DNA of 64,000 nt from Gloeocapsopsis dulcis (lineage in GTDB: Bacteria; Cyanobacteriota; Cyanobacteriia; Cyanobacteriales; Chroococcidiopsidaceae): contig NZ_CP119968.1 in NCBI RefSeq assembly GCF_032163395.1, positions 1,721,501 through 1,785,500 of the forward strand, in the 5' to 3' direction. Positions within the stretch are counted from its first letter, which is position 1, and each line of letters opens with the position of its first letter. The notes under the pieces were generated by a model. It was not told the DNA's origin. It saw only the letters and a list, made by a program, of their open reading frames with translations, and did no database searches. A program made the translations under genes and the position numbers. Positions 4,721-58,347 of this stretch are shown here, in pieces.

Positions 4721-5749
4721 ATGTCTATGTCCAAAGCTGCAAGCAACATATCTCTTCAGTCTACAGCCGAACGCTTGCAGATAGAGTATCTTATCAACTC
4801 CACTGCACCAACAAACACAAGCGATGGCAATGACGTCATTCAAGGATTAACCAAAAAACCAAAATCTCTCCCTGCACGCTACTTTTACGATGACCGAGGT
4901 TCTCAATTATTTGAGCAAATTTGTGAGTTACCAGAATATTATCTAACTCGCACCGAAACCGCTATATTACAAAAATGTGCCACAGAAATTGCCCGAATTA
5001 CTGGCACTTGCGAATTGATAGAACTTGGTAGTGGTAGTTCGACAAAAACTCGTATTCTCTTAGATGCCTACAATCGACTCGGCTACCCTCTGCACTACTT
5101 ACCAATTGATGTCAGTGCGGGAATTTTAGAAAGCAGTGCTCAACAATTATTGACTGATTATCCATTATTGCAAGTTCATGCATTAGTTAGCACCTACGAA
5201 CTGGCACTAGAAAAACTCATGCCTTCCGAACTACCAAGTCGGATGATTTGCTTTATTGGTAGTACACTCGGAAACCTTACTCCACAAGAATGCGATCTCT
5301 TTCTCTCACAAATCACTTCTGCGTTGCTTCCTGGAGAGTATTTCTTGTTGGGAGTAGATTTACAAAAGCCAAAGGTTCTCCTTGAAGCAGCGTATAATGA
5401 CCGCCAAGGAGTGACCGCAGCCTTTAATTTGAATATGCTGCAACACTTAAACGAGCGCTTTGAGGGTAATTTCGACTTGCAGCAGTTTGCACATTGGGCA
5501 TTTTACAACGAGAGTCAGCATCAAATCGAGATGCACTTGCGGAGTTTGCGATCGCAAACTGTTTTCTTAAGCGCCCTAGATACAACTGTCGAATTTGCTC
5601 CACAAGAAACTATCTTGACTGAAATCTCGCGTAAATTGAATCTCGATGCCCTACAACAAACACTGACACAGCAAGGCTTAACAACAGTTGAAGTTTGGAC
5701 AGATCCTCAACAATGGTTTGCCTTATTACTGTGTCAGTTGCAAGCATGA
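4721..5749 (+). CDS. egtD: L-histidine N(alpha)-methyltransferase EgtD
   Basis: EgtD trimethylates histidine to hercynine with three SAM, the first step of ergothioneine synthesis. The frame opens at 4667, but ATG 4721 follows GGAGG by four bases and is the better start (342 residues). SAM-binding glycine motif ELGSGSSTKT spans 101-110, and PARYFYDDRGSQLFEQI at 51-67 and LPEYYLTRTE at 70-79 are signature segments of the family. FIGSTLGN and DLQKP further along are also family-typical. It lies downstream of egtB with a 322-bp gap, so it may have its own promoter. Confidence 0.93.
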   Translation: MSMSKAASNISLQSTAERLQIEYLINSTAPTNTSDGNDVIQGLTKKPKSLPARYFYDDRGSQLFEQICELPEYYLTRTETAILQKCATEIARITGTCELIELGSGSSTKTRILLDAYNRLGYPLHYLPIDVSAGILESSAQQLLTDYPLLQVHALVSTYELALEKLMPSELPSRMICFIGSTLGNLTPQECDLFLSQITSALLPGEYFLLGVDLQKPKVLLEAAYNDRQGVTAAFNLNMLQHLNERFEGNFDLQQFAHWAFYNESQHQIEMHLRSLRSQTVFLSALDTTVEFAPQETILTEISRKLNLDALQQTLTQQGLTTVEVWTDPQQWFALLLCQLQA

Positions 5750-16835: not shown

Positions 16836-17681
16836 TTAACCGACAGTTCTAGCTAACAATACTGGGCAATTCGCATTTACACGTACGTAATCGGATAAAG
16901 AAGAACCTAACAGCCGATCTAAGTCAACAAAACTTTTGGCAATTGAAGGACGGCGATCAGGAGAACCAAGCATCAACAAGTCCACATCATTTTCTTCTGC
17001 GATTTGGCAAATTGCTTCACCTGGTTTCCCTGTTGTTGAGATAGCACGCGGTTGTATACCGTATTTTTTGGCTTCGGCGATCGCCCCTGCTAAAATAGAA
17101 TCTTTTTCTGTTGGCGTGGTTGTACCCGACGAACCACTTGCACTTTTATCAACATGGGCTAAAATTAGCTGTCCTCCTTTAATGTCTCGCAGTAGAAACA
17201 GAGCTAATTGTAAACATTGTTTTGCTGCATCCGAACCATCTATTGCTACCATGATCCGGTTAATTTTTTTGACATAAATATCATCCTTAACCAACAACAT
17301 GGGTCGAGAGGATAATTGAAATACGTACTGACTTACTGAGTTAGACAAAATTGATTGCAAACGTTTGAGACCGCGTGAACCCATAATAATGAGATCCGCA
17401 TCAATCTCCTCTGCTACTTGGCATACCACATCCTTAGGTTCGCCTTGCCGAAGAATTGCCGAAACCTTAGTTGAATCTAACTGTAAGGATTGAATAGCTG
17501 TACCTAGAACCTTTCCTCCCTCTTCCCACTTAGACGTCATGATCTCAGCACTAACTTGAGAGGGAACAACATGCAAAACAGTAACAGATGCCTTTTGAAT
17601 CGATGGCAAATCCATCAATGCCTTGAGCATTTCCTCTGAATTTCCAGTTCCAGAGTCAGCTAGCAGAATTTTTTCTAACAT
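16836..17681 (-). CDS. Universal stress protein with two UspA domains
   Basis: A 281-residue tandem USP. Domain 1 (about 1-135) starts KILLADSGTGNSEE and carries the nucleotide-type motif MGSRGLKRLQSILSNSVSQY. Domain 2 (about 140-281) starts RIMVAIDGSDAAKQ and has LMLGSPDRRPSIAKS instead of the usual G-x2-G-x9-G loop, so ATP binding is more likely in domain 1. AGAGG precedes the ATG by four bases. It converges on psbM. The role is probably stress response; nothing nearby defines it. Confidence 0.9.
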   Translation of the reverse strand: MLEKILLADSGTGNSEEMLKALMDLPSIQKASVTVLHVVPSQVSAEIMTSKWEEGGKVLGTAIQSLQLDSTKVSAILRQGEPKDVVCQVAEEIDADLIIMGSRGLKRLQSILSNSVSQYVFQLSSRPMLLVKDDIYVKKINRIMVAIDGSDAAKQCLQLALFLLRDIKGGQLILAHVDKSASGSSGTTTPTEKDSILAGAIAEAKKYGIQPRAISTTGKPGEAICQIAEENDVDLLMLGSPDRRPSIAKSFVDLDRLLGSSLSDYVRVNANCPVLLARTVG

Positions 17682-18384
17682 TGAGCCTCTTTATTGTTTT
17701 GTTCACTAACTGAAGTGGCTACAGTTTATTAAGCAAAGTAACACTTTGCACTGAGCAGTAAACTTATGATTTTTATGATTAATTATATTTTACAATTTTG
17801 CTGGAAAATTTAATTCTTGATTATTCTAAATTTTAGTTTAAATATTACTTAATTAAGAGCAAATATTTTTTAACAAAATTTATAATAGTTAAGTCATTAA
17901 TAAATTTTATGCTGATCTATAATTAAATTTATAGATTTTCAATAGCCTAGAGCGCACGATTTCGAGGCTCAAATCCAAGCTATAAATCTACAAATTAAGC
18001 AGATATCAACATTATTAATAATGTTGAAGCTATGTTGAAGCTCACCTACACCTAAATTATGTAGCAGCCTTATAGCCAAATGTTATGAGGTTTTCTTAAA
18101 AGGGGTCAGGGATCGGGGATCAGCTTTACTTATAGATACAGGTTGCTGTCAAAATTTGCTCCGTTGTCCGAAAACGATAGTTTACGCGGGATTTTTTGAC
18201 TAGATATACTGAATATTGCTATTAATTTTATTAACTTGGACTTAATCAACCATTAATCGGTGTTAAACTTAAGACACCAAAGTATACCTCCTCCACAGGT
18301 GTCACTAGGCTGTTTCATCTCGTATAGTTGTGATGAGTACAGAAATTCTTTTATCTACAAAAGGTGTGAGGATAAGAGGCAAAA
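17682..18384. other. Long AT-rich leader upstream of the SLH porin
   Basis: 703 bp without a credible gene. Contains tandem ATGTTGAAGCT copies (about 18019-18040), an AGGGGTCAGGGATCGGGGATC repeat at 18101-18121 and, next to the porin, AGAGG at 18374-18378 as ribosome binding site. It must carry divergent promoters for the porin and the stress protein. No Fur-like box was convincing by eye. Confidence 0.5.
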
Positions 18385-20316
18385 ATGTCAAAGATATTGT
18401 GGAAATCACTGCTGCTTAGCCCAGCAATTCTAGGAGCAACGCTAGTTGTATCTTCTACAGCCGTTGCAGTAGAGCAGTCGCAACAAGCTGAACTAAATCA
18501 GCAAGATGCTGCTCAAGCTCCAGTGACAGATTATGTAGTTGCGATCGCAGACAATGCCATTGAGCAAAATACTACGGTAAGTGTTCAGGTAGTAAACCCA
18601 GCTGCCACTCAACCCCAAACAGTAGCAGTCACTCAAGTTAGCCCTGCTCCAATCACTGTAGCGCAAGCAACCACAGCCCCAGTAGCCCCTGCTGCCGCGC
18701 CTGAAGCAACATCGGTTGAATCTTTAGAGCAACTCAACCGCTACAGCAACGAAGGTACAGGCAACAGCAATTCAGTTGCGCAAGTCACCTCTGTTTCTCA
18801 ACTATCTGACGTACAACCGACAGATTGGGCGTTTCAAGCATTACAGTCCTTGGTAGAACGCTACGGAGTTATCGCAGGTTATCCCGATGGAACCTATCGC
18901 GGAAATCGTGCTATGACACGTTATGAGTTTGCGGCTGGTTTGAATGCGGCGTTAGACAGAGTCAACGAACTGATTGCAGCTGGTACTGCTGATATGGTTC
19001 GTCGTGAAGACCTGGCAACTCTTCAGAGATTGCAAGAAGAATTTGCGGCAGAACTCGCAACACTACGCGGTCGCGTAGACGCTTTAGAAGCACAGACAGC
19101 AGAACTTGAAGCAAATCAATTTTCTACTACAACTAAATTAGTTGGTGAAGTAGTTGCAGCAGTTACTGATACATTTGGAGATGACGTTGACGACAACACA
19201 GTACTGCAAAACCGCGTCCGTTTAGACTTCCAAACCAGTTTTGGTGGTTCTGACGTATTGCATACGCGGCTATCGACAGGTAATGCTCAACCGTTTAGCT
19301 TCAGCGCTTTTAATGGTCCTGTTCCTAATGCAACATTTGAAGGTCAACAAACCTTTAATGTATCGCCAAATTTTGAGAATGACATTTCTCTCGATTGGTT
19401 AGCTTATGACTTCCCCCTATTTGGGCAAGCTAGAGGTTATTTAGCGGCTACTGGTGGTATTCATAGCGACTATGCCGCAACTGCTAACCCCTACTTTGAA
19501 GACTACGACGGTGGTAGAGGTGCGCTATCTACCTTCGCCCAACAAAATCCAATTTATCGAATTGGAGGCGGTGCTGGTGGTGGTTTGACCTTAGGATTCG
19601 GCGGTAGTGGTGTTTTCAGACCAAGCTCTTTAACAGTGGGTTATCTGGCAGATAATGCGAGCGATCCAGGTTTGAGTGCGGGTATTGGTAACGGTGACTA
19701 TGCAGCATTAGCGCAGCTAAACTTTAACCTCGGCGATCGCGTTGCTTTAGCAGCAACTTATGTCCACGGTTATCACACCACTGGTAACGGAATTTATGAT
19801 ATCGGTGGTTCATTTGCTGGTCAATCAGCAGGTCCAGTAGTGGGTACAACCCAAGCAAACCTTGTTGATATCAGTGGCGATGGCTTCGTTGATGGCGTTC
19901 CAGGTTTATTAACTGGACCTACAGTGACCAACTCCTACGGCGTATCGGCTGCACTCCGCTTAACCGATAGAATCTCGCTGAGTGGCTTTGGTACGTATAC
20001 AAATGCTACGCTCCTTGGTCGTGGTGGTGCTGATATCTGGACTTTTGGCGGTGGAGTTGCTTTCCCAGACTTGGGTAAAGAAGGCAACCTCTTAGGCATC
20101 TTCGCTGGTGTAGAACCTACATTAAGAGGTGTTGAGGCTCCTGGCGTAGTCGGTTTTACCCGTGACTATGGTTTACACGTTGAAGGCTTCTATAGATATC
20201 AACTGACAGACAACGTTTCGATTACACCTGGTGTGATTTGGTTAAGTTCTCCAGGTCAAAACGACGCTAACTCAGATGTCATTATCGGTACACTCCGGAC
20301 AACCTTCAACTTCTAG
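18385..20316 (+). CDS. SLH-domain outer-membrane porin (iron uptake/OprB type)
   Basis: A 643-residue cyanobacterial major outer-membrane porin. A signal peptide occupies about residues 1-28 (ends near TAVAVEQ). An Ala/Gln/Thr/Val-rich linker precedes a single SLH domain around 140-195 (TDWAFQALQSLVERYGVIAG, then PDGTYRGNRAMTRYEFAAGL). A coiled coil follows (LATLQRLQEEFAAELATLRG), and the remaining 400 residues are a beta barrel of the OprB-like class ending in LRTTFNF with terminal Phe. The SLH domain anchors such porins to peptidoglycan-linked polymer. Relatives conduct inorganic ions including iron; the cargo cannot be read from sequence. Confidence 0.92.
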   Translation: MSKILWKSLLLSPAILGATLVVSSTAVAVEQSQQAELNQQDAAQAPVTDYVVAIADNAIEQNTTVSVQVVNPAATQPQTVAVTQVSPAPITVAQATTAPVAPAAAPEATSVESLEQLNRYSNEGTGNSNSVAQVTSVSQLSDVQPTDWAFQALQSLVERYGVIAGYPDGTYRGNRAMTRYEFAAGLNAALDRVNELIAAGTADMVRREDLATLQRLQEEFAAELATLRGRVDALEAQTAELEANQFSTTTKLVGEVVAAVTDTFGDDVDDNTVLQNRVRLDFQTSFGGSDVLHTRLSTGNAQPFSFSAFNGPVPNATFEGQQTFNVSPNFENDISLDWLAYDFPLFGQARGYLAATGGIHSDYAATANPYFEDYDGGRGALSTFAQQNPIYRIGGGAGGGLTLGFGGSGVFRPSSLTVGYLADNASDPGLSAGIGNGDYAALAQLNFNLGDRVALAATYVHGYHTTGNGIYDIGGSFAGQSAGPVVGTTQANLVDISGDGFVDGVPGLLTGPTVTNSYGVSAALRLTDRISLSGFGTYTNATLLGRGGADIWTFGGGVAFPDLGKEGNLLGIFAGVEPTLRGVEAPGVVGFTRDYGLHVEGFYRYQLTDNVSITPGVIWLSSPGQNDANSDVIIGTLRTTFNF

Positions 20317-50908: not shown

Positions 50909-52834
50909 CTAACTGCGAGGTTGAAGGAAAATACCAAGTCCATTGTGGATGCGAGCAGCGGTACGAGGCGAACGATCGAGTAGTTGTCCTCCCAAATAAA
51001 GACTTGTTGAACTACCACCATCAAGATTTAAAGCATCAACACAGCCGAGGTGTTGCATAATTTGGGCAATTTCAGTCAAGCTAGGACCAGCCCCACCAGC
51101 GCGATTATGGACAGCAGCAATGAGGAGGTTTCCTGTTGTCGTTGTACCGATCGCACTACGTGAAGCTTTTTGACGGCTAAAAGCTTGACTAAAACCCTCA
51201 GCTTCGGCATTAAGAACAATTTGGCGATTTTGTAATAGAAGTGGTCCACCACCCAAAATGTGGGGGTAGTTAGAGAAGTCAGCAGGAGTTGTGGAGTTTT
51301 CTGTGCGGATGATTGACCCTACAGGAAGTAAACTGGCAATCTGTGGGTTTGCTCTTAAAGTGAGTAAAAAGCCATTAGGAGGAATGGGAATTGTTGTTTC
51401 ACCAGCTACACCTCCAGGAACTTGTCCTGTCACTTGATTATTTTGGACAACGACAATAATTTCATCATCAATCAAAGGTGTGTACGTAGCACCCCAAGTA
51501 CTTGTATAGTGTGCAATACCAGATTTGACATAACCACTATTAAAAGTCACAACAGGTAGGCGCTGTCCAGCAGCAGTAATAATTGTTTCTTGAAGTTGTA
51601 GTCGTCCAAATTTGAATTTGCCAGAGTCATTCCACGCGATCGCTCCTCGATTGAGAATTGGACCTGATAACCATTGTCCATCACGCCGAATAGCACCCAA
51701 AGGTAGCTGATTCTTACGATTAAAAAAGCCAGCATTAATTGCAGCTGCAGCCTTTAATTGTTGGGCAGTGGTGATGATTGGTGCAGTACCAGTCAGAGAG
51801 TTTGGCACGCTCGAAATCGGCTTGAGTGATAATTCGGTTGTCTGGGGATTAATTTCGAGTAAGACAACAGGAAAGCGCGAATTCCCTAAAGTCACAAATT
51901 GCTGTCGCCAACGTACTCCCGTAGCCCATTGAATATCACGCTCAACCATCGGATCGGGGCGCAAATCGATGACTAAGCGATTGGGGTTTGGCAACGTACT
52001 CAATTGCGGAGATAACCCAGCAGGGACACTCAAGCGAATTGTTGTCAGATTTGACGCAGTTTCTACCTGGAGGACTGAAGTTTGATTGGTGGCTGGAGTA
52101 CTGGTAAGCTGCTCAGGTAGACTTGGTTGGAATTGTTGCGTTAGCGATTGATCGGTAGCAGCGTCAATGGTGATTAACCATTCTTGATTGGGGGGCTGAT
52201 CGTCATCGTTTGCTGGTGATGGTGATGGTGATTGAGGTTTTGCTGCAACTGGTTGAGATGTGACTTGCCAAAATGTAGGGCGGTTTAAATCAATGACAAT
52301 GCGATCGCCCCACGCTTGTTTTCCCTGGCGAATGTTTTGGATCTTTGCCGCTGGCGTATTAATTCGGAGTATGTTGCCGTGCACTTGCAACTGCCAACCA
52401 ACTTTGGTGGCTAACTGGGTTATATCGAGATAGCGATAACCATCACGGTGCCAAGCATCTAATTCAAATGCTGAAGTTGTCGGTGGAGAAAACCATTGCA
52501 CTGATTGCTTGGTGACATTTTTGGTATTTAACAACTCTACACCGAGCAATTGCATGAGTCCCGTGTCGCTCATTGCTGTCGCAATTCCTGATTTGGTTGG
52601 CTGCTGCCACTGACTCCACGCAGCTGGTAATGTACGATTGTTAATTGAAACTTGTGTACCTGTCGCAACTAAACGTGGTGTAGAGCTTTGCGCAATTAGT
52701 AATTTTGAGTCTGAGGATGAAGGTAGTTCCAACGATTGCTGAGCATCACTGTTGGCGATTGGTGTTAGCCATAAGGCGATCGTCAGTAAAGGAAATAAAG
52801 TACTTGTTACAAAAAATGTGCGAGATATCGGCAT
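50909..52834 (-). CDS. Phosphodiester glycosidase family protein (NAGPA-like), exported
   Basis: The frame opens at 52990, but ATG 52834 (MPISRTFFVTSTLFPLLTIA) gives a clear signal peptide and follows AAGGTGGG by a few bases; ATG 52876 is another option. The N-terminal part holds AMIN-like beta sequence (GDRIVIDLNRPTFWQV). From about residue 300 of the 641-residue form the NAGPA domain shows AINAGFFNRK, GAIRRDGQWL, HILGGGPLLL and DALNLDGGSST. Family members cleave sugar phosphodiesters or act on cell-wall polymers. Substrate is unknown. Confidence 0.8.
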   Translation of the reverse strand: MPISRTFFVTSTLFPLLTIALWLTPIANSDAQQSLELPSSSDSKLLIAQSSTPRLVATGTQVSINNRTLPAAWSQWQQPTKSGIATAMSDTGLMQLLGVELLNTKNVTKQSVQWFSPPTTSAFELDAWHRDGYRYLDITQLATKVGWQLQVHGNILRINTPAAKIQNIRQGKQAWGDRIVIDLNRPTFWQVTSQPVAAKPQSPSPSPANDDDQPPNQEWLITIDAATDQSLTQQFQPSLPEQLTSTPATNQTSVLQVETASNLTTIRLSVPAGLSPQLSTLPNPNRLVIDLRPDPMVERDIQWATGVRWRQQFVTLGNSRFPVVLLEINPQTTELSLKPISSVPNSLTGTAPIITTAQQLKAAAAINAGFFNRKNQLPLGAIRRDGQWLSGPILNRGAIAWNDSGKFKFGRLQLQETIITAAGQRLPVVTFNSGYVKSGIAHYTSTWGATYTPLIDDEIIVVVQNNQVTGQVPGGVAGETTIPIPPNGFLLTLRANPQIASLLPVGSIIRTENSTTPADFSNYPHILGGGPLLLQNRQIVLNAEAEGFSQAFSRQKASRSAIGTTTTGNLLIAAVHNRAGGAGPSLTEIAQIMQHLGCVDALNLDGGSSTSLYLGGQLLDRSPRTAARIHNGLGIFLQPRS

Positions 52835-52990
52835 TACCCACCTTAGCGATTGATGTGATTGAACAGGAGTCAACATGTCACAGCAGCGGCAATCAGTGCA
52901 GAAGTTTGGTAGTTTTACAGGCAATGACTTTTCCGACGTTTGGTGTCGTCTTGCTGCATTCTTGACTCCTGAATGGAGAATTTGACTCAA

Positions 52991-53628
52991 ATATTAAAAA
53001 TTACTGACTTCTATTTCGAGCCTTAACGTCATAATGTATAAAAGTGGCTTGAGTGTGTTTGCCAAAAAAACTAGCAGTATTCAAGTCCTACCCATTCATT
53101 GAGCGTACCACTAGGCTCGACTTGAATTGGGTATCGCTACCAAATTGGTTGGTAAGTGCTTAGCAGTAGCATTTCCCAAGCTTGCAATTAAATTTAATTG
53201 CATTGTGGAATTGTCAAATCTAGGCATTTGATCATAACCTTACTCTGTACTTTATGATAAAGATCAATGGTTGATGCAGGTTTATTGGCATTTGTCAATA
53301 CAGCGTCTACCGAGATTAAATCTGAGCTAGTACTTTTCAAGGAGTTGCTTGAGTAGCGACAAAATCATAACTCTAAGACATTCACCCACAGATTAGAGTT
53401 CCGAAAGCAATAAAGTGTTAAATCCGTTATAGATGAAATGACAAGCACTGAAAGCAAAAGTACTGTTAAAACTCGACAAAAAGTATTGAACGTAAGTCAG
53501 ATAATTTTAAATAATTTTTATTAACTCAACCTTGTATTTTTTATCCGTCACTGTGTCTGTAGTTATAAATTACAGAATTAATCGCAATCAATTTAGGTAA
53601 ATCCCTTTTTACAGAATCCTACTCGTTT
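52991..53628 (+). promoter_or_regulatory. Palindrome-rich leader of the glutamate synthase gene
   Basis: No gene is seen in 638 bp, but five inverted repeats are. They are 53079-53087 with 53119-53127 (ATTCAAGTC type, nested GAGC/GCTC); a perfect 20-bp palindrome at 53183-53202 (TGCAATTAAA then its mirror); ATCATAA at 53231-53237 with TTATGAT at 53252-53258; AACTCTAA at 53369-53376 with TTAGAGTT at 53393-53400; and CTGTA-N9-TACAG at 53557-53575. They are candidate operators or a structured leader RNA. Confidence 0.6.
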
Positions 53629-56600
53629 ATGAATAACCAGCAAATGAATCAAAATCAACGAAACGAAGTGAGTCAAAACTCGGAAACACCTTTAAGTAGC
53701 ACTTATGTAGGACCACGCTGGTTAGTGGAAGAAAGGGATGCCTGTGGCGTGGGATTTATTGCTCATTGTGAAAATCAAGCGAGTCATGAAATTGTTGAGA
53801 AAGCACTCGCAGCGCTTGCTTGCTTAGAACACCGAGGTGGTTGTAGTGCTGACCAAGATTCAGGTGATGGTGCAGGATTAATGGCTGCAATTCCTTGGGA
53901 GTTGCTGAGTCAGTGGGTGCAACAGCAAGAACATCAGATGCCACACCCAGAAAATTGTGCGGTGGGGATGTTATTTTTACCACAAGAAGATGCCCTAGCA
54001 GACATAGTTCGTCGGACTGTAGAAAACGTAGTAGCACAAGAAGATCTCACCGTGTTGGGCTGGCGCGTTGTACCAGTAAAACCTCAGTTATTAGGAATTC
54101 AAGCAAGAGAAAATCAACCCCAAATTGAACAAGTACTCATAGCTAGCAAAAATAAAACGGGAGATGCGCTGGAACGTCAACTGTACATCACCCGCAAGAA
54201 AATAAGTAAAGCGCTAGAAGCAACAAGTGAGGTAAAAGACGGCGAGAACTTCTACGTTTGCTCCTTCTCTAGTCGCACAATTGTTTACAAGGGAATGGTG
54301 CGATCGGCAGTCCTGGGTGAATTTTATACTGATTTAAGAAATCCAGCATATCAAAGTGCGTTTGCAGTTTATCATCGCCGTTTTAGCACAAACACAATGC
54401 CGAAATGGCCTTTAGCACAACCGATGCGGCTATTAGGGCATAACGGGGAAATCAACACTTTGTTGGGAAATATCAACTGGATGATGGCACGGGAAGCCGA
54501 TTTAACACATCCAGTTTGGGAAGATCGTTTTGATGTCCTTAAACCGATTGTTGATGTTGACAATAGCGACTCAGCAACACTTGATAACGTACTTGAGTTA
54601 TTAGTCCGGTCGGGTCGTAGTCCGCTTGAGGCACTGATGATTATGGTGCCAGAAGCATATTTAAATCAGCCAGATTTAGAAAATTATCCTGACATTATTG
54701 ATTTTTACGAATATTACAGTGGTATTCAAGAAGCTTGGGATGGACCAGCGCTTCTTGTGTTTAGTGATGGTAAGAAAGTCGGCGCAACACTAGATCGGAA
54801 TGGATTGCGACCAGCACGATATAGTCTGACAAAAGATGGTTATATTGTCGTTGCCTCTGAAGCAGGTGTGATCGATTTACCTGAAGCCGACATTGTGGAA
54901 AAAGGCAGACTAGGTCCAGGACAAATGATTGCAGTGGACTTAGAAAGTCACGAAATTTTGAAAAACTGGGAGATTAAACAGCGAATTGCCCAAGAAAAGC
55001 CTTATGGTAAATGGCTGAATGAATATCGTGTCGTTGGTAATACAGATACTTTAAATCTAGATACTCAAGCAGCATTTGGTGGAGAGGAAGATACAACGAA
55101 GAACTTGTCTTCTACTCCTTTGCCACAAAACCTAAATCCGAAAACTGCATTGCTACGGAGTCAAATTGCCTTTGGCTACACCACAGAAGATGTGGAAATG
55201 GTGATTCAACCGATGGCAAGTGAAGGAAAAGAACCGACATTTTGTATGGGGGATGACATTCCCTTAGCAGTACTATCGGAACGCCCTCATTTGTTGTATG
55301 ACTACTTCAAGCAGCGGTTCGCGCAGGTAACGAATCCTCCCATCGATGCTTTGCGGGAAAGCTTGGTGATGTCCTTGAAGATGGAACTAGGCGAACGAGG
55401 AAATTTACTAGAGGTCAAACCAGAGTATGCCAAGCGCCTGAAACTTGGTTCTCCAGTATTACAAGCAGAAGATTTAATCGCAGTACAGCAATCAGGCTTT
55501 GCGTGTGCCAAGTTATCTACATTGTTTGAAATTGCCACAGGTCCGCAAGGGTTAGAAGTAGCAGTTAGAAAACTATGCGAACAAGCAGCAGCGGCGGTAA
55601 AAGATGGAAACGAAATCTTGATTTTAAGCGATCGCCCAGACAGCAAATTATCGGAAGAATTGAGTTATATTCCTCCTTTATTAGCCATTGGTGCAGTCCA
55701 CCATCACCTGATCCGTCAAGGCTTACGCATGAAAGCCTCGTTGGTAGTTGATACTGCACAGTGCTGGAGTACGCATCACTTTGCTTGCTTGATTGGTTAT
55801 GGTGCGAGTGCCGTTTGTCCGTATCTTGCTTTAGAAACTGTACGTAGTTGGTGGTCTGATCCAAAAACTCAGCAGTTCATGGAGCGCGGTAAAATTGCGG
55901 CAATTACATTAGATCAAGCACTGAATAACTATCGCAAAGCAGTAGAAGCAGGAATTCTCAAAATTTTGTCGAAAATGGGAATTTCACTGCTGACGAGTTA
56001 CCAAGGCGCGCAAATCTTTGAAGCAATTGGCATTGCGCAAGACTTATTAGAACTTGGGTTCCGTGGCACAACTTCACGCTTGGGCGGCTTGAGTACCAGC
56101 GAACTGGCGCAGGAAGTCTTATCTTTCCATCAGCGGGCTTTCCCCGAATTAACTGTTAAGAAATTAGAAAACTTTGGGTTTGTTCAGTATCGCCCAGGCG
56201 GTGAGTACCACATGAATAGCCCAGAACTCGCAAAAGCACTGCATAAAGCGATCGCCGATCAAAAAAATTACGACCACTACGAAGTTTATCGCCAACTCTT
56301 AGAACACCGACCTGTAACTGCACTACGCGATTTACTCGACTTTAGTTCAGACCGCGCGCCAATTGCTAAAGATGAAGTCGAATCGATCGCAGAAATTGTC
56401 CAACGATTCTGTACTGGTGGCATGTCTTTAGGAGCGCTATCGCGGGAAGCCCACGAAACTCTGGCGATCGCGATGAACCGTATCGGCGGTAAATCAAACT
56501 CAGGGGAAGGTGGTGAAGATCCTGTCCGCTATCACGTTCTTGATGATGTGGATGAACAAGGTCATTCGGCGCTACTACCTCACTTGAAAGGTTTGAAAAA

Positions 56601-58347
56601 TGGCGATACGGCGTCTTCAGCAATTAAGCAAGTCGCTTCAGGACGTTTTGGGGTGACACCAGAGTACTTGATGAATGCCAGGCAAATTGAAATTAAAATC
56701 GCCCAAGGAGCAAAACCAGGGGAAGGCGGTCAACTTCCTGGCAAAAAAGTCAGCTCGTACATTGCCATGCTGCGACGTTCTAAACCTGGGGTGACGCTCA
56801 TTTCTCCACCACCACACCACGATATTTATTCAATTGAAGACTTGGCACAGTTGATTTTTGACTTACACCAAATCAATCCTCAAGCTCAAGTATCTGTCAA
56901 GTTGGTTGCTGAAGTAGGTATCGGTACAGTTGCCGCAGGTGTTGCCAAAGCAAATGCAGATATCATCCAGATTTCAGGACATGACGGCGGTACAGGGGCA
57001 TCACCTTTATCTTCAATTAAACACGCAGGTGGTCCTTGGGAACTTGGATTAACCGAAGTGCATCGGGTGTTGATGGAAAATAAATTACGCGATCGCGTCG
57101 TATTGCGCGTTGACGGCGGCTTTAAGAGTGGCTGGGATGTCCTGATGGGAGCCTTAATGGGTGCTGAAGAATTCGGCTTTGGGTCGATTGCAATGATTGC
57201 GGAAGGCTGTATCATGGCACGCATTTGCCATACAAACAACTGTCCTGTTGGTGTTGCTAGTCAGAAAGAGGAACTGAGACAGCGCTTCCCTGGGATGGCA
57301 GAACACGTTGTTAATTTCTTCTACTTTATTGCGGAAGAAGTTCGCGGGCTGTTAGCAAAACTAGGCTACCGTTCGCTGACTGAAGTTATGGGACGTGCTG
57401 ATTTACTGAAAGTGCGAGAAGGCGTAAGATTGACAAAGACACAAACGCTGAACCTCGACTGTATTACACAGTTACCAGATACCAAGGAAGATCGCACTTG
57501 GCTCAGTCATGAAACAGTTCACAGTAATGGTCCTGTTCTAGATGACGAATTACTCGCCGATGCAGAAATTCAAGCAGCAATTCGCAATCAGTCTACTGTC
57601 ACCAAAAACTCAGAGATTGTGAATACAGATCGAACTGTAGGTGCAAGACTCGCAGGAGCGATCGCTGCTCAATATGGTAATACTGGCTTTGAAGGACAAA
57701 TCAATCTCAATTTCACAGGAAGCGTCGGACAAAGCTTTGGTGCATTTAACTTGCCTGGCATGATTTTGACACTTGAAGGCGAAGCTAACGATTACGTTGG
57801 TAAAGGAATGCACGGCGGGGAAATTATTATTAAACCCCCAGCAGAAGCAACTTATGCTCCCGATCAAAACGTGATTGTAGGTAATACTTGCTTGTATGGT
57901 GCCACAGGCGGAACTCTCTTTGCTAATGGCATTGCAGGCGAGCGCTTTGCGGTGCGCAATTCTAAAGGGACAGCAGTTATTGAAGGCGCAGGCGATCACT
58001 GCTGCGAATACATGACAGGTGGTGTTATTGTCGTCCTCGGTAAAGCTGGTAGAAACGTAGCTGCTGGAATGACCGGAGGTTTAGCATACTTCCTTGATGA
58101 AAATGGCAATTTCCCTGCGTTAGTTAATCCCGAAATTGTTAAACTGCAACGGGTAAGTAGCCCTGCCGGTGAGAAACAATTAAAAGATTTGATTGTCGCT
58201 CATGTGGAACGCACAAATTCACCCAAGGCAAAACAAATTCTGGAAAACTGGTCAGAGTATCTACCGCAGTTTTGGCAAGTTGTACCACCTTCGGAAGCCG
58301 ATAGCGCAGCAGCTGTTGCGGAGAAAGAGTTGAGTTCTGTGCAGTAG
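53629..58347 (+). CDS. gltB: Ferredoxin-dependent glutamate synthase, large subunit
   Basis: The enzyme converts glutamine and 2-oxoglutarate to two glutamates, completing nitrate assimilation. In 1572 residues a 38-residue propeptide precedes Cys39 ([11 protein letters not shown]), the amidotransferase nucleophile after cleavage. The central and FMN synthase domains follow, with 3Fe-4S ligands in [14 protein letters not shown] (about 1200). A C-terminal GXGXG beta-helix domain contains [14 protein letters not shown]. No small NADPH subunit gene is adjacent. Its 640-bp leader is repeat-rich. Confidence 0.96.

Follow-up and report, generated by a model that had tools for sequence, protein, structure and literature searches.

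The closest described counterparts of the locus presented here are structured leader RNAs of cyanobacterial nitrogen genes, namely the glutamine riboswitches of type 1 (glnA RNA, RF01739) and type 2 (Downstream-peptide, RF01704), as outlined in passages of two reports (PMC2864571, PMC6316151). These passages associate glnA RNAs with glutamate synthase among other genes (PMC2864571) and describe the regulation of gifB by a glnA-type glutamine riboswitch in Synechocystis, as well as the role of glutamate synthase in closing the main nitrogen-assimilation cycle of cyanobacteria (PMC6316151). The gltD motif, a riboswitch candidate of Selenomonadales and Veillonellales, is also found directly upstream of a glutamate synthase gene; going by the section that describes it, this motif is set apart by occurring in another phylum, by preceding gltD and not gltB, and by a possible hairpin that follows it and hides the ribosome-binding site (PMC8632094). 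For gltB itself, a portion of another report lists a start site in Synechococcus elongatus and gives no leader structure (PMC6091082). Titles found in the open-access literature concern RNA control of glutamine synthetase and of its inactivating factors, and none of them concerns a gltB leader in the family studied here.

Unlike RF01739 and RF01704, the gltB leader of the DNA analysed in this study (the window, a 64,000-nt stretch of Gloeocapsopsis dulcis) has no Rfam match, and its main element, hairpin I, is one long hairpin. Searching the whole window with Rfam at the gathering score returned only a tRNA, searching 52850-53700 up to E 5 returned three unrelated weak hits (a snoRNA, a miRNA, and mcrA) far below gathering scores, and searching three relatives up to E 1 returned none. 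A glutamine riboswitch of the glnA or Downstream-peptide type was rejected, as neither covariance model matched. The stretch is best explained as a long structured 5' leader of gltB combined with a divergent promoter region, a reading held with moderate confidence, the function being predicted from the sequence. The conserved regulatory DNA can be regarded as real, a structured gltB leader RNA is likely, and the perfect palindrome discussed below is the tip of a hairpin. By sequence comparison, the pairing of hairpins I and II and blocks A and C are conserved.

The region 52991-53628 is the divergent intergenic region between gltB (53629-58347, plus strand) and a minus-strand gene encoding an NAGPA-domain protein (phosphodiester glycosidase; 50909-52876; PF09992, 1.9e-35) whose start codon is uncertain; the first base, 52991, lies one past the farthest possible start (52990) of that frame. 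The gltB gene is complete and encodes a glutamate synthase large subunit of 1572 aa (PF00310, PF04898, PF01645, and PF01493), which we take to be of the ferredoxin type. The genome belongs to Chroococcidiopsidaceae (family f1), whose genera are here labeled g1 to g7. All 19 family genomes match the NAGPA-domain protein, and one (G017) has no gltB match. The leader aligned at 87% with two genomes of the same genus and at 72-74% with three g3 genomes, and shorter pieces gave 12 matches in 8 further genomes of g4, g5, and g6 (60 searched). Three g2 genomes, in which gltB stands behind another gene (presumably argH, judged from residues), the NAGPA gene is located elsewhere, and block A is missing, were excluded from the block alignments. 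One alignment (A3) comprised 14 of the 15 remaining genomes, with L028 omitted for its much shorter segment.

Block A (61 bp, 52986-53046) is a candidate divergent promoter block for the NAGPA gene and gltB, with 26 of its 61 columns invariant in 15 genomes. It is kept in 15 of the 18 family genomes with gltB, the g2 genomes being the exceptions, and its model, R1, recovered exactly those 15 among 291 order genomes at E <= 2e-12; seven further matches were weak (E 8e-4 to 9e-3, 18.0-21.6 bits), six of them partial. The block A pattern also matched seven records titled Chroococcidiopsidaceae (2), Aliterella (2), Chlorogloea, Gloeocapsa, and Chroococcus. Within it, CATAAT (53030-53035, plus strand), invariant in 15/15 genomes, is a candidate -10 element of a distal gltB promoter with a predicted start near 53042, for which no matching -35 hexamer was found, and the strongly conserved TAATAT (52991-52996, minus strand) could be the -10 element of the NAGPA-domain gene. 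In 6 of the 15 genomes, the block A core lies 48-49 nt from an ATG of the NAGPA frame, whereas it stands anywhere from 393 to 637 nt from the gltB ATG, which favors a role for the NAGPA gene; the block may serve that gene only. In G011 (L096 and L027), a metagenome-assembled genome, the NAGPA-domain gene beside gltB is apparently split into several frames, with gltB open and block A kept; the broken frame may reflect either decay or an assembly error. The persistence of block A despite this apparently broken frame ties it to gltB, and the downstream hairpin I signal, stronger on the gltB strand, likewise favors a role for gltB. One divergent promoter for both genes, with start sites as predicted, would be the simplest reading.

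A candidate proximal gltB promoter, TTGAAC-N18-AATAAT (53486-53515, plus strand), emerged from a promoter scan and runs into block C, which comprises an AT-rich stretch (~53503-53525) and, further downstream, a hairpin at 53556-53576. The scan gave 2 sites against 2.8 expected, so that the pattern by itself is at chance level, but it is located within a conserved stretch, and the AT-rich TAATTTTAAATAATTTTTATTAA is identical in the six g1 and g3 genomes. The assumption that the AT-rich block is a Fur or other site was considered and then dropped. A possible small reading frame after block A (MYKSGL..) was rejected, as by eye it is not kept in the other leaders. Another hairpin, following ATAACC, takes different forms in different genera and lacks significance in most genomes.

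An earlier note on this DNA had reported a cluster of five inverted repeats, including a perfect 20-bp palindrome. The palindrome, TGCAATTAAATTTAATTGCA, is indeed found exactly at 53183-53202, upstream of a complete gltB, and it is rare: when the 638-bp stretch was dinucleotide-shuffled 1000 times, 0.1% of the shuffles contained a perfect palindrome of at least 20 bp, and the whole window holds 2 such palindromes against a mean of 0.07 in 60 shuffles. The cluster of five was not confirmed as reported, the repeat count being only weakly above shuffles: requiring perfect arms of 7 or more and loops of at most 20 gave 3 inverted repeats against 1.1 +/- 1.1 expected (P 0.10), and lowering the minimum arm length to 6 gave 8 against 4.2 +/- 2.1 (P 0.07); the other four repeats had been reported without coordinates. 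Elsewhere in the window, a longer perfect palindrome of 22 bp, TCAACATTATTAATAATGTTGA, lies at 18006-18027 between frames 16836-17681 (minus strand) and 18385-20316 (plus strand), each of at least 100 aa. An 18-bp palindrome, AGTTTGCGATCGCAAACT, lies at 5543-5560, and its core, GCGATCGC, is presumably the HIP1 repeat of cyanobacteria.

Such a repeat count, near chance in total, is consistent with ordinary divergent intergenic DNA, in which block A and the AT-rich block would be promoters and the palindrome and hairpins chance or neutral leftovers. This alternative appears unlikely, if still credible; against it stands the consensus folding of the leader. On the plus strand, six genomes of g1 and g3 share a consensus fold of 83 nt, hairpin I (53151-53233), with a 13-bp outer stem (53151-53163 with 53220-53233; 76/76 cells paired), two middle stems within 53169-53176 and 53207-53214, and an apical stem formed in this species by the palindrome. 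The 3' arm of the outer stem falls within the conserved block B (GGAATTGTCAAATCT..GCATTTGATCATAACC; 53207-53248, plus strand), which is recognizable in g1, g3, g4, g5, and g7. An RNAalifold scan of the six leaders against column shuffles had its minimum at 53150-53247, where z was -5.9 for the gltB strand and -2.7 for its complement. For 53145-53242, the consensus energy was -38.6 against -16.1 +/- 3.2 (z -7.1), with 0/1000 column shuffles of the six genomes as low, and the minus strand gave z -3.4. Folded singly, the six genomes gave z -1.9 to -3.5 on the plus strand and -0.25 to -1.9 on the minus strand over this region. As a control, ten gltB coding windows from the same six genomes gave z -2.1 to 1.7 on both strands, and it is against these values that the gltB-strand z of hairpin I, together with that of hairpin II (-4.2), argues against neutral DNA.

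The pairing within hairpin I points in the same direction. Among the 13 pairs of the outer stem, 5 vary on one side, 1 varies on both sides, and 7 are invariant; all six variable pairs are kept, as are 10/15 over the whole hairpin, compared with 52/208 when variable unstructured columns are given a fixed partner. Read as gltB-strand RNA with G-U pairs allowed, all 29 pairs together are formed in 165/172 cells, against 137/172 as RNA of the other strand and 135/172 as a Watson-Crick DNA dyad, and sliding the 3' partners by 1-3 columns lowers pairing from 95.9% in register to 27-44%; these figures come from two genera only, six of the 15 block A-bearing genomes of the family, and the sequences that score the pairing are the very six from which the structure was selected. 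When the 3' letters were shuffled, 10/500 shuffles reached the covariation score and 25/500 reached the count of pairs changed on both sides, so that covariation measured in this way is modest. Overall, pairing appears to be kept through sequence change, on one strand, in six genomes of two genera.

The reach of hairpin I across relatives is narrow, which favors the neutral alternative. At E 0.01, its covariance model, R2, matched 6 of 388 order genomes, exactly those used to train it (the search filters lose weak matches), and hairpin I as modeled is thus absent at this threshold from the other 382, including g4 to g7. Blocks A and C are also better conserved than most of hairpin I. Relaxing the threshold to E 1 within the family gave matches in 7 of 19 genomes, that in the seventh (G011) being weak. 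The R2 matches in L027 and L026 are weak (21.6 and 18.8 bits), in the right place and on the right strand; five outer pairs are missing from that of L027, which therefore rests largely on block B, and L026 forms another hairpin, a very strong one, immediately ahead of block B. Outside g1 and g3, nine family genomes carry block A; L026 is the only one of them to fold strongly in this region (z -3.3), the others giving z 0.2 to -1.4, and after g4 and g5 were added to the alignment, the gltB strand gave no hairpin I signal (z -0.6 to -1.7). On this comparison, hairpin I as modeled is a feature of two genera, and other hairpins perhaps replace it elsewhere in the family. A repeated mobile element was rejected, as R2 finds one place per genome with both strands searched. 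Separately, just after block A (53036-53159), the minus strand of nine genomes (g1, g3, g4, and g5) gave consensus-fold z values of -3.4 and -3.1.

Nearer to the gene, hairpin II (TCTGTAGTT-ATA-AATTACAGA; 53556-53576, plus strand) lies 53-73 nt before the gltB ATG. At 53545-53600, the g1 and g3 genomes gave the plus-strand z cited above, with -0.35 on the minus strand; in wider windows of the same genomes, the minus strand fell to -2.7, and in nine genomes (g4 and g5 added), two windows gave z -4.2 and -4.8 on the plus strand and -5.0 and -2.6 on the minus strand. Strand preference is thus mixed, and hairpin II alone does not settle the strand. In all ten of L019-L028, no single stem of the region scores better; P is 0.003-0.043 in eight of them and 0.33-0.35 in L022 and L024. 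At the matching place, 4/5 g6 genomes carry a short stem whose sequence differs (TTGCTA..TAGCAA or TAGCAG). In a 15-genome MAFFT alignment, which misplaces the g6 stems, 78.4% of cells were paired, with 0/500 shuffles as high and 28-51% when slid, and RNAalifold predicted no structure on the 15-genome alignment of hairpin II.

A proximal hairpin could extend to the gltB leaders of other families, although the stems differ and the evidence, drawn from gltB leaders only, is suggestive only. Across 58 gltB leaders of 8 families (18 of f1 and 40 others, picked non-randomly from 190 matching genomes of seven families), mean folding z was lowest (-1.18) in the -120..-40 window, six other windows averaging -0.25 to -0.63, and z was below -2 in 15 of the 58. 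Within ~130 bases before gltB, L105 (family f33) carries a perfect 10-bp inverted repeat, CTAAATTTCG..CGAAATTTAG, of which related imperfect versions were seen by eye in some relatives. In L122, L123, and L125 (family f15), a 12-bp perfect stem, CCTAGTAGCAGT..ACTGCTACTAGG, stands just before the gltB start, with folding z -4.1 to -5.8.

The rarity of a perfect 20-bp palindrome would also be consistent with operators, a dimeric DNA-binding regulator (NtcA-like or of another kind) occupying the palindrome and the other dyads; TCTGTA-N9-TACAGA is moreover common to g1 and g4. This explanation is nevertheless improbable. The symmetry of the palindrome is kept in 0/5 aligned relatives (L020-L024), the site reading GCAATTATAATTTTGTTGC and GCAATGAAATTTTGTTGC in L020 and L021 and lacking symmetry likewise in L022-L024; it is a single copy in its own genome, with no second site at up to 2 mismatches; and the changes seen in hairpin I are compatible with G-U pairing on a single strand, that of gltB. 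On these grounds, the palindrome was rejected as an operator, and as a DNA dyad it appears private to this species. The NtcA consensus is GTA-N8-TAC. The leader shares with NtcA-activated cyanobacterial nitrogen promoters a nitrogen-assimilation gene and two GTA-N9-TAC sites, and it differs in having N9 instead of N8. Searching 52801-53700 for GTA-N7..10-TAC with exact half-sites gave N9 sites at 53077-53091 and 53559-53573, one N10 site at 53597, and no N8 site, in agreement with the spacing that had been reported. NtcA was rejected, as this search gave no N8 site and the site at 53077 is not kept in g3. The one at 53559 is enclosed by hairpin II, and a change in the right half-site of that hairpin in g3, where G-U pairing keeps part of the stem, likewise speaks against operators.

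The earlier note had left the choice between operator sites and an RNA leader and had proposed aligning the gltB leaders of relatives. That alignment removes the operator half for the palindrome, whose symmetry is lost, and sustains the pairing of hairpin I (6/6 genomes, two genera); the RNA-leader half gains support from the strand-biased consensus folding of hairpin I and, with mixed strand evidence, from hairpin II. An RNA leader is therefore favored over operators, as far as the comparison of leaders can indicate.

A two-state RNA switch is a further, rather improbable, elaboration. The block B arm (CTRRGCATTT) would pair either locally, in hairpin I, or with sequence near the 5' end, the state being set by a nitrogen signal (such as glutamine or 2-oxoglutarate) or a small RNA. 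This model arises from differences among genomes in local and distal pairing of block B: folds from block A to block B were local in all three g1 genomes and in one of the three g3 genomes, and distal or split in the remaining two, with L023 and L024 preferring another partner for the 3' arm of hairpin I, and L027 folded with a distal GCCCAG:CTGGGC pairing.

The 5' stem just after block A, GGCTTGA:TCAAGTC, pairs in 83.7% of cells against 80.8% in shuffles, of which 52/500 reach its score; covariation beyond shuffles is little, and RNAalifold predicted no structure on a 14-genome alignment of this stem. A separate small RNA starting at block A and ending near 53240-53270, with hairpin I as its body, is improbable: a promoter-like conserved block followed by ~200 nt with structure, and the pairing of the 5' stem, speak for it, and against it stand the lack of any terminator-like site (0 intrinsic terminators, defined as a G+C-rich stem plus T run, in 52850-53700) and patchy conservation that runs on to the gltB start.

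With a structured gltB leader as the preferred reading, transcription would start just after block A, directed by CATAAT, and yield a leader of ~590 nt with both hairpins, while the proximal promoter would yield a short leader with hairpin II only. The hairpins would act after initiation, by altering transcript stability or processing or by being bound by a protein or small RNA. Since hairpin I stops almost 400 nt short of the ATG, it could not directly mask the ribosome site and would instead adjust the output of the distal promoter. Hairpin II, being close to the ATG, could affect translation or decay.

The gltB leader is ordinary in kind and new as an instance. It illustrates how an eye-catching palindrome can cap a drifting RNA stem instead of being an operator. 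If the leader acts as proposed, it would add an RNA layer to the control of gltB, a key enzyme of nitrogen assimilation, in these cyanobacteria.
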